IMG/VR virus record: IMGVR_UViG_3300044618_000993
Location: 1 to 64,000 of that record
Strand: one strand, 5' to 3'
Length of the DNA: 64,000 nt
From: a virus
Notes under the pieces: model-generated
What the model saw: the letters and a program-made list of their open reading frames with translations, nothing else
The model's database searches: none
Told to the model about the DNA's origin: nothing
Part shown: piece after piece, positions 7,415 through 52,504 of the stretch
How the letters are laid out: every line of letters starts with the position of its first letter
How positions within the stretch are numbered: the first letter of the stretch is position 1
Program-made: the position numbers and the translations under genes

Positions 7415-8098
7415 ATGAACGTAAATCAAATAAGAGACTGGGTCAACTTTGAGCTTAACAAGCATCAATCAGGGAATACTCTAAACAAAGAGGAGTACAA
7501 TCTCTGTTTGGCTTGGGCTAATGCTGAATACTTTAAAATTAAGTATGGCTTGCCAGAGGAGTATAGACCAGGTATGCCTTTGCCTAGACAGGCATGGGCT
7601 GTGTCTCAAAAAATAATAGACGATTTGAGAAGATTCTTAGTTGGCAAGGGTGGTAAAAACTTACCTCAGTTAACCGTAGATATTAACGGCTATGCCGATC
7701 TTCCAGATGATTATATTCACTACAGCTCAATCAGATATAATGGCAGAGCGGTAGAAACTATTAGCAATGATGTTTTGGGTGACAGACTTCAAAGCAGCAT
7801 TGTGTACCCAGACAAAAGTTACCCACTGTGTGTATTTTATGACACATACCTTCAGTTTTATCCTAAAGATTTAGGTTATGTAGACTTTGATTATTTAAGA
7901 ATGCCAATCACTCCTTATTGGGATGCTGTCATTGTTGATGATGAATATGTTTACAAGCCATCTAGTAGCGTTCAATTGGAATGGCCAGACGATACTCACA
8001 CAGATATCGCTAACTTAATTATTAAATACGCAAGTGAAAACATCAGAGACTTCGGAATGACTCAACTTGCTAAACAAAGACAAAACGACGGACAATAA
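7415..8098 (+). CDS. Neck/ring-like structural protein 1
   Basis: This 227-residue soluble protein is largely helical at the N-terminus, with a beta-rich centre (residues about 80-150) and a C-terminal helix after EWPDDTHTDIANLIIKYASENIRDF. The phrase 'S-V-Q-L-E-W-P-D-D-x-H-T-D-I' recalls ring or tail-adaptor proteins of crAss-like phages as I remember them. It is the first of three similarly sized genes directly upstream of the muzzle-like gene, the place where head-tail connector proteins are encoded. Its last base overlaps the next ATG. Confidence 0.6.
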   Translation: MNVNQIRDWVNFELNKHQSGNTLNKEEYNLCLAWANAEYFKIKYGLPEEYRPGMPLPRQAWAVSQKIIDDLRRFLVGKGGKNLPQLTVDINGYADLPDDYIHYSSIRYNGRAVETISNDVLGDRLQSSIVYPDKSYPLCVFYDTYLQFYPKDLGYVDFDYLRMPITPYWDAVIVDDEYVYKPSSSVQLEWPDDTHTDIANLIIKYASENIRDFGMTQLAKQRQNDGQ

Positions 8099-51829: not shown

Positions 51830-51850
51830 ATTAATTTGATGTTTAAATTT

Positions 51851-51895
51851 GAAAGCGTGGGTGGAATCGAACCACCCTTTATTCCAAAACGCTTT
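51851..51895 (-). ncRNA. tRNA-like minihelix (acceptor stem plus T-arm only)
   Basis: On the minus strand, a 7-nt segment AAAGCGT (51895-51889) pairs perfectly with ACGCTTT (51858-51852). Between them lie an 11-nt linker and a 6-bp T-stem (GGGTGG with CCACCC) closing a 7-nt loop TTCGATT that matches the tRNA T-loop consensus, with the conserved G53-C61 pair. Base 51851 is a discriminator-like C. There is no D-arm, anticodon arm or encoded CCA. It sits in a 73-base gap between two paralogous genes, in the same orientation. It may be a tRNA relic or a functional tRNA-mimic substrate for tRNA-binding enzymes. A simple hairpin terminator is less likely because no T-run follows. Confidence 0.7.
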
Positions 51896-51902
51896 GAGTG
51901 GG

Positions 51903-52067
51903 TTAATTAGTCCTAAAGTATTCCGCTATGTCGATTAGTTCATCTATTAATTGTTCTTCGCTCATTTTAGCATACTTTTTAGCGTCACTTACTTTTGCAA
52001 TTTCATCTGATGCAAAGTCAAAGATTGCATCAATTAATTTTTCTCGTGTGGTTTGCTTTGTGTTCAT
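51903..52067 (-). CDS. Small acidic protein, paralogue of the 51446 product
   Basis: The start is ATG 52067 (MNTKQTTREKLIDAIF, 54 residues); the longer in-frame start at 52112 would overlap the leader motif. Sequence matches residues 1-52 of the protein encoded at 51446-51829. Two CCCTTA-type motifs precede the start. It is helical and acidic, of unknown function. Confidence 0.65.
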   Translation of the reverse strand: MNTKQTTREKLIDAIFDFASDEIAKVSDAKKYAKMSEEQLIDELIDIAEYFRTN

Positions 52068-52315: not shown

Positions 52316-52504
52316 TTAAAAATTTTCGATTTCAAGTTGTCTTAACATACATTCAAGTGCTTCCTCTCTTGTGATAACCTCACCGAACTCGGCGAGGCTA
52401 TCTTCATCGTTGTAAGTGCCGTTGTGGTCATTCCATTCAAGCCACGCAATCATATCTTCACGAGACCAGTTTTTAAGCGATTCTTTAGTTATTTCAGTTG
52501 TCAT
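52316..52504 (-). CDS. Small strongly acidic unknown protein
   Basis: This 62-residue protein has roughly 18 Asp/Glu against 5 Lys/Arg and two Trp residues (SREDMIAWLEWNDHNG). It is helical. Acidic small early proteins of phages often mimic DNA or bind host factors, so a takeover role is inferred. The leader has a CCCTTAACCC-type motif. Confidence 0.62.
   Translation of the reverse strand: MTTEITKESLKNWSREDMIAWLEWNDHNGTYNDEDSLAEFGEVITREEALECMLRQLEIENF

Follow-up and report, generated by a model that had tools for sequence, protein, structure and literature searches.

The DNA window analysed here (64,000 nucleotides, positions 1 to 64,000 of the IMG/VR virus record IMGVR_UViG_3300044618_000993) carries on its minus strand a conserved member of a widespread class of phage RNA elements, which is neither a relic nor a chance hairpin. 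Judged from sequence, these minihelices are best read as intercistronic mimics of the top half of a precursor tRNA, in which acceptor stem, D-loop GG and T-arm would together imitate the elbow. It is quite possible, at somewhat less than an even chance, that host enzymes process their ends in the manner of tRNA ends, preferably by a cut on the 3' side. The window copy and its neighbouring genes comprise the following features.

51852-51895, minus strand: minihelix (acceptor-like stem, mini D-arm and T-arm), 13 stacked base pairs in total, from sequence, folding and covariance model
51889-51895, minus strand: 5' strand of the acceptor-like stem, AAAGCGT, partner of 51852-51858; all seven pairs covary in alignments A3 and A4
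51882-51888, minus strand: mini D-arm TT-TGG-AA, two base pairs and a UGG triloop with a GG resembling G18/G19
51878-51881, minus strand: spacer TAAA from mini D-arm to T-stem, varying in length and sequence among relatives
51859-51877, minus strand: T-arm GGGTGG-TTCGATT-CCACCC, six base pairs and a 7-nt loop, with the tRNA invariants U54, U55, C56, R57 and A58 and the G53-C61 pair
51852-51858, minus strand: 3' strand of the acceptor-like stem, ACGCTTT, whose last T takes discriminator position 73 in the tRNA register
51849-51851, minus strand: tail C74-A75-A76, resembling CCA-less phage tRNA genes
51903-52067, minus strand: upstream gene, 54 amino acids, no family and no Pfam match; its stop ends 7 nt before the minihelix
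51446-51829, minus strand: downstream gene, 127 amino acids, no family and no Pfam match; its ATG lies 22 nt past the minihelix

Read along the minus strand from 51895 down to 51851, the sequence is AAAGCGT-TTTGGAATAAA-GGGTGG-TTCGATT-CCACCC-ACGCTTT-C. RNA folding gives the same structure as minimum free energy and as centroid (-15.8 kcal/mol, z = -2.9), consisting of exactly the 7-bp and 6-bp stems that the earlier note had described here together with the loop TTCGATT. That note saw neither a D-arm nor an anticodon arm. The anticodon arm is indeed missing, but the linker retains a covarying 2-bp mini D-arm with the G18/G19 bases. Likewise, the C that had been taken for the discriminator base is position 74 in the tRNA register, while the discriminator is the T paired with the first A. 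ARAGORN and Rfam at gathering thresholds called no RNA gene in the window, and an Rfam E-value search of the element's region returned sub-threshold chance matches only. A new covariance model scores the element at 62 bits (E 2.1e-15, the model having been built with the element included and its own record searched). In the whole phage record of 66,939 bases this search found one copy.

Without an anticodon arm no cloverleaf can form, and the element is thus not a canonical tRNA (RF00005). The minihelices do have the T-loop invariants and the G18/G19 of canonical tRNA; absent are the 12-bp acceptor/T stack, which measures 11 to 13 bp here, and the N73-CCA end, since CCA occurs in 5 of 258 minihelices. 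CCA-less tRNAs exist, so the missing CCA alone does not decide against tRNA identity. The mRNA-like domain of tmRNA, with its tag reading frame and pseudoknots, is likewise lacking in the window element, whose linker is only 11 nt long, and neither ARAGORN nor Rfam called a tmRNA in the window.

The wider family was collected from IMG/VR. A scan with nothing but the exact 19-nt T-arm retrieved 43 stretches, most of which showed the same architecture with a different acceptor stem. An acceptor stem of at least 5 bp was present in 28 of the 33 distinct flanks tested, compared with 2.8 on average and 8 at most when flanks were swapped between loci in 2000 trials, and acceptor and linker had played no part in the selection of this set. 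This is beyond chance expectation. The linker contained YGG in 29/33 flanks against 3/33 at a control position. The set was then enlarged by wider scans of IMG/VR, for one of which the matches listed were used, and by the covariance model R1, built from 22 elements. Across 141 distinct aligned elements 99.2% of the cells are paired, and the covariation value of 0.834 compares with 0.14 after shuffling and at most 0.14 after sliding; the elements of this alignment were fitted to the model, and A3, an alignment picked by hand, shows the same. A MAFFT alignment (A2) was left out because it misplaced the GG. Poor conservation of the two stems in related phages had been named beforehand as the sign of a chance relic, yet both stems recur and covary.

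Within the family the acceptor-like stem spans 5-7 bp and is followed by a mini D-arm of two base pairs around [T/C]GG, which occurs in covarying versions such as AATGGTT, TATGGTA, CATGGTG, CTTGGAG and TTTGGAA. Some mycobacteriophage copies have ACTGGCAGA at this place, which is nearer to an ordinary D-loop. After a spacer of a few nucleotides comes the T-arm, usually of 6 bp, with the loop TTCGATT or rarely TTCGACT, TTCAATT or TTCGAGT; the rare variants keep U54, U55, C56, R57 and A58 as well as G53-C61. In the aligned relatives the GG, T54, C56, A58 and C61 are invariant, T55 is found in 99% and position 57 is a purine, although conservation of the T-loop and of AATGGTT is partly imposed, as the loci were fetched by patterns fixing parts of T-arm and linker. 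Secondary copies in the same genomes support the conservation of these T-arm and linker bases. From the conserved bases, a G19-C56 elbow contact (tRNA numbering) could form. A second plain hairpin directly follows the minihelix in 134/241 cases, compared with 55 after shuffling, and in mycobacteriophages a Shine-Dalgarno sequence and then the next gene come after it.

The tail is a further tRNA-like trait. Over 258 minihelices the form N73-C74-[A/T/G]75-A76 prevails, with CAA in 69, CTA in 53, CGA in 28 and CCA in only the 5 mentioned above. CCA-less tRNA genes called by tools in the fetched loci, from which those overlapping a minihelix were removed before the comparison, have C74 in 101/111 cases, and position 75 is then T in 46, A in 43, G in 11 and C in 1. 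Hence, in the pattern of C74 and [A/T/G]75 the minihelices reproduce the 3' flank found on CCA-less tRNA precursors. Past the discriminator, they thus look like pre-tRNA substrates of RNase Z, with no CCA and a flank like that of CCA-less precursors. The 5' flank is different, because U-1 is found in 68% of the phage tRNAs but in about 21% of the minihelices, where N-1 is A-rich; this figure depends on the register, since a U-1:A73 pair lengthens the helix. Hence, the leader of the phages' own tRNAs, expected of an RNase P substrate, is not reproduced. U-1 is a preference of RNase P and not a requirement. As an observation on the tRNA genes themselves, those without CCA in these phages (for example at loci L171 and L223) nearly always keep C74 and nearly never C75, a partial-CCA signature like the one reported for chloroplast tRNA genes.

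The position of the minihelices in the genomes is equally regular. Open reading frames of the same strand lie on both sides of 60% of 228 distinct elements (18% at random positions), and 2.6% of them fall inside a reading frame of at least 150 aa (32% at random), the reading frames of the IMG/VR loci being mechanical calls. The minihelix starts at a median of 8 nt past the stop codon, which overlaps the minihelix in 44/178 cases. In five mycobacteriophage operons a full-length match occupies 41/60 gaps of at least 60 nt, and 46/51 matches begin no more than 30 nt from an annotated stop; in Send513 all 10 gaps of at least 60 nt contain one. The neighbouring proteins (381, falling into 294 clusters) share no single family, so the minihelix is not tied to one gene.

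The window copy conforms to this picture. Its operon lies on the minus strand of a tailed phage with genes for a DnaB-type helicase and a DNA methyltransferase, and the 127-aa downstream gene has N-terminal similarity to the 54-aa upstream gene. No relatives of the downstream gene and no sequenced orthologue of this copy were found in IMG/VR, and we infer its probable function from the minihelix family. A similarity search with the whole region yielded no phage match and a single 61-bp coding match in a Pedobacter plasmid (window positions 52404-52464, 82% identity to a coding stretch of NZ_MN657144.1), which hints at a Bacteroidota host. Elsewhere in the window, an ORF of 1118 aa at 23129-26485 matches PHROGs of DarB-like antirestriction proteins and of internal virion proteins.

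Among cultured phages, the mycobacteriophages Send513, Cuke and Predator carry 13, 12 and 7 copies, as counted with model R1 at loose E-values, so that the weakest may be partial matches. Further cultured carriers include Papyrus, Indlulamithi, Fowlmouth and Archetta, and the minihelix is also found in Corynebacterium phage PSonyx, Streptococcus SA-TP2, Pasteurella PMP-GADVASU-IND and Microcystis Mel-JY01, in the uncultured crAss-like phage cr131_1 and in Bacteroidota phages. Database matches in MargaretKali, EMsquaredA and Lj771 proved on inspection to be something other than minihelices, and there is no minihelix at a match among the tRNA genes of Asterius either. In 84,980 genomes of prokaryote species, only 8 stretches fitted a strict pattern; the genes adjoining the Carboxylicivirga copy look like those of a Mu-like prophage. 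In the phage regions inspected the minihelices bear no annotation. Our search of Rfam, annotations and open-access papers found no description of the minihelix; the open-access literature returned work on the biology of RNases P and Z and on tRNA mimicry.

Several copies deviate from the common form. In IMGVR_UViG_3300028883_000018 six near-identical minihelices, about 150 nt apart, follow each other on the minus strand at approximately 927-1780 of locus L182, with the repeat unit GCGAGCC-AATGGTTAGA-GCAGG-TTCGATT-CCTGC-GGCTCGC (7+5 bp), A/C-rich spacers, no convincing gene and a terminator-like hairpin near the end of the run; this might possibly be a trans-acting or multi-cut RNA. In Cuke, a larger variant (7444-7640 of the Cuke locus) has a long extra arm between the D-loop GG and the T-arm and ends in ACCA, and it looks like an intermediate between the minihelix and a full tRNA or a tmRNA-like domain. 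Another intergenic variant of the same phage (4499-4597) has the T-loop TGCGAGT, in which U55 is changed, and a linker without GG. Two minus-strand minihelices of locus L102 (3087-3149 and 3811-3872) contain a small extra hairpin at the place of the anticodon arm. In PSonyx (1498-1580 of its locus), an ACCA-tailed minihelix stands immediately upstream of a gene for an RtcB-like RNA ligase.

How might such an element act? An elbow and an acceptor stem without an anticodon are what tRNA end-processing enzymes read. Host enzymes of this kind would recognise the fold in the polycistronic phage transcript and so produce an mRNA end. The most likely step would be a cut by RNase Z on the 3' side, at N73/C74, perhaps with CCA addition afterwards. 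Such a cut would leave the upstream mRNA ending in a compact tRNA-like fold and would give the downstream mRNA a new 5' terminus, often beside the second hairpin; a cut by RNase P on the 5' side would be an alternative inside the same idea. Both RNase P and RNase Z grip the elbow of tRNA (PMC4810234). Bacterial RNase Z processes precursors that lack CCA; a CCA inhibits it strongly and, in the presence of Mg2+, slows the B. subtilis enzyme 1520-fold (PMC7479834), and a chloroplast tRNase Z fraction cuts partial-CCA precursors after C74, leaving the remainder of the CCA to be added (PMC3161902). RNase Z is clear in 6/7 minihelix-carrying genomes, the host genome with weak matches only being a Spirosoma MAG, and RNase P RNA is present in 6/6 host genomes tested. 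The 3' cut is favoured because of the tail, of the missing U-1 and of the overlap with stop codons, which such a cut would tolerate; our view of the host enzyme thus leans towards those acting on 3' ends rather than RNase P. The helix length of 11-13 bp, against 12 in tRNAs, and the poor RNase Z matches of one host genome lower the certainty of the 3' cut, and it also counts against RNase Z that C74 is kept although the full CCA is its antideterminant. The earlier note had thought of a functional tRNA mimic as well, and the recurrence in unrelated phages, the strong covariation, the fixed location, the tRNA-invariant T-loop and the D-loop GG bear this out. Nothing points to the aminoacyl-tRNA synthetases or EF-Tu that it listed as partners, since an encoded CCA is almost always absent.

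If host RNase P were the enzyme, it would cut at the 5' end of the acceptor stem and the downstream mRNA would begin with a protective minihelix. RNase P is universal, hairpins of acceptor stem, T-stem and T-loop are proven model substrates (PMC11143913), G1 is common among the minihelices of the 11-bp class, and Bacteroidota hosts keep the GGGUAGG segment of L15, with which C74 would pair. However, C75, which would make the second L15 pair, is avoided, N-1 and N73 are paired in the 13-bp class, the minihelices do not share the U-1 of the phages' own tRNAs, and a 5' cut would deprive the upstream mRNA of its stop codon wherever that codon overlaps the helix, which is the case in about a quarter of the elements. 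Because of this overlap and the missing U-1 the RNase P reading was downgraded, and we consider it unlikely. The tight placement behind stop codons and the frequent second hairpin would also suit a rigid fold that stays uncut and passively blocks 3'-to-5' exonucleases or insulates the translation of the neighbour. A plain stem-loop would suffice for this task, and the D-loop GG, the invariants of the T-loop and the C-[A/T/G]-A tail would be left unexplained, which makes such a passive role rather improbable.

Freed minihelices could instead serve in trans as decoys that titrate a host tRNA-binding factor, be it a processing or modification enzyme or a tRNA-targeting defence nuclease. Many phages have multiple copies, and the six-copy run with a terminator-like hairpin at its end would fit, but copies mostly occur singly, have diverged and keep to gene junctions, and the window phage has just one, so that this role seems quite improbable. 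The tRNA-like T-arm sequence and the single copy in the window phage are the arguments for a tRNA relic, as suggested earlier, an attachment-site fragment or a chance hairpin. Against them stand covariation, recurrence and intergenic placement, for a relic left by deletion would neither covary nor turn up at gene junctions as many as 13 times in one genome; this group of explanations can be given hardly any weight. An attachment-site origin in particular was rejected, since the acceptor stems around the exact T-arm are unrelated from phage to phage, which would not be expected of an attachment core.

If tRNA-type end processing holds, tRNA punctuation, known from organelles, would also work in DNA phages through a natural tRNA mimic of very small size, and phages would use the tRNA-maturation enzymes of their hosts to set mRNA ends. 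Moreover, the regular gaps of about 95 nt in several mycobacteriophage operons would be explained, RNase Z and RNase P would gain a minimal substrate from nature, and the covariance model would serve to annotate a feature overlooked in widely studied phages. The far-reaching version is doubtful at present; in it, DNA phages across many bacterial phyla would use half-tRNA folds to divide polycistronic transcripts into single mRNAs that end in a tRNA-like minihelix, made by host RNase Z and completed with CCA, a previously undescribed practice.

Among known systems, the model hairpins of RNase P have the same helices and T-loop as the minihelix, which differs in being natural and intercistronic, in its added GG mini D-arm and in the stop overlap and N-1 base that disfavour a 5' cut. 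The tRNA-like domain of tmRNA likewise joins an acceptor stem, a D-loop without a proper D-stem and a T-arm, whereas the minihelix has no mRNA-like domain, tag reading frame or CCA and is not called by ARAGORN or Rfam. Organelle tRNA punctuation with its t-elements and the mascRNA/MALAT1 ends also rely on a tRNA-like fold in a long transcript, which there marks the cut sites of RNase P and/or RNase Z (PMC4919922); the fold in phages is half that size, the hosts are those of phages, and cleavage is a prediction from sequence features. Finally, the tRNA-like structures of plant RNA viruses, such as that of TYMV, are viral RNAs imitating the acceptor/T half and the D/T-loop elbow of tRNA, and in terms of predicted secondary structure and conserved bases the minihelix shows an acceptor/T-type fold with the elbow bases as well. 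There is one TYMV-type structure per RNA genome, at its 3' end, whereas minihelices measure about 44 nt, lack an encoded CCA and are repeated at the gene junctions of double-stranded DNA phages.
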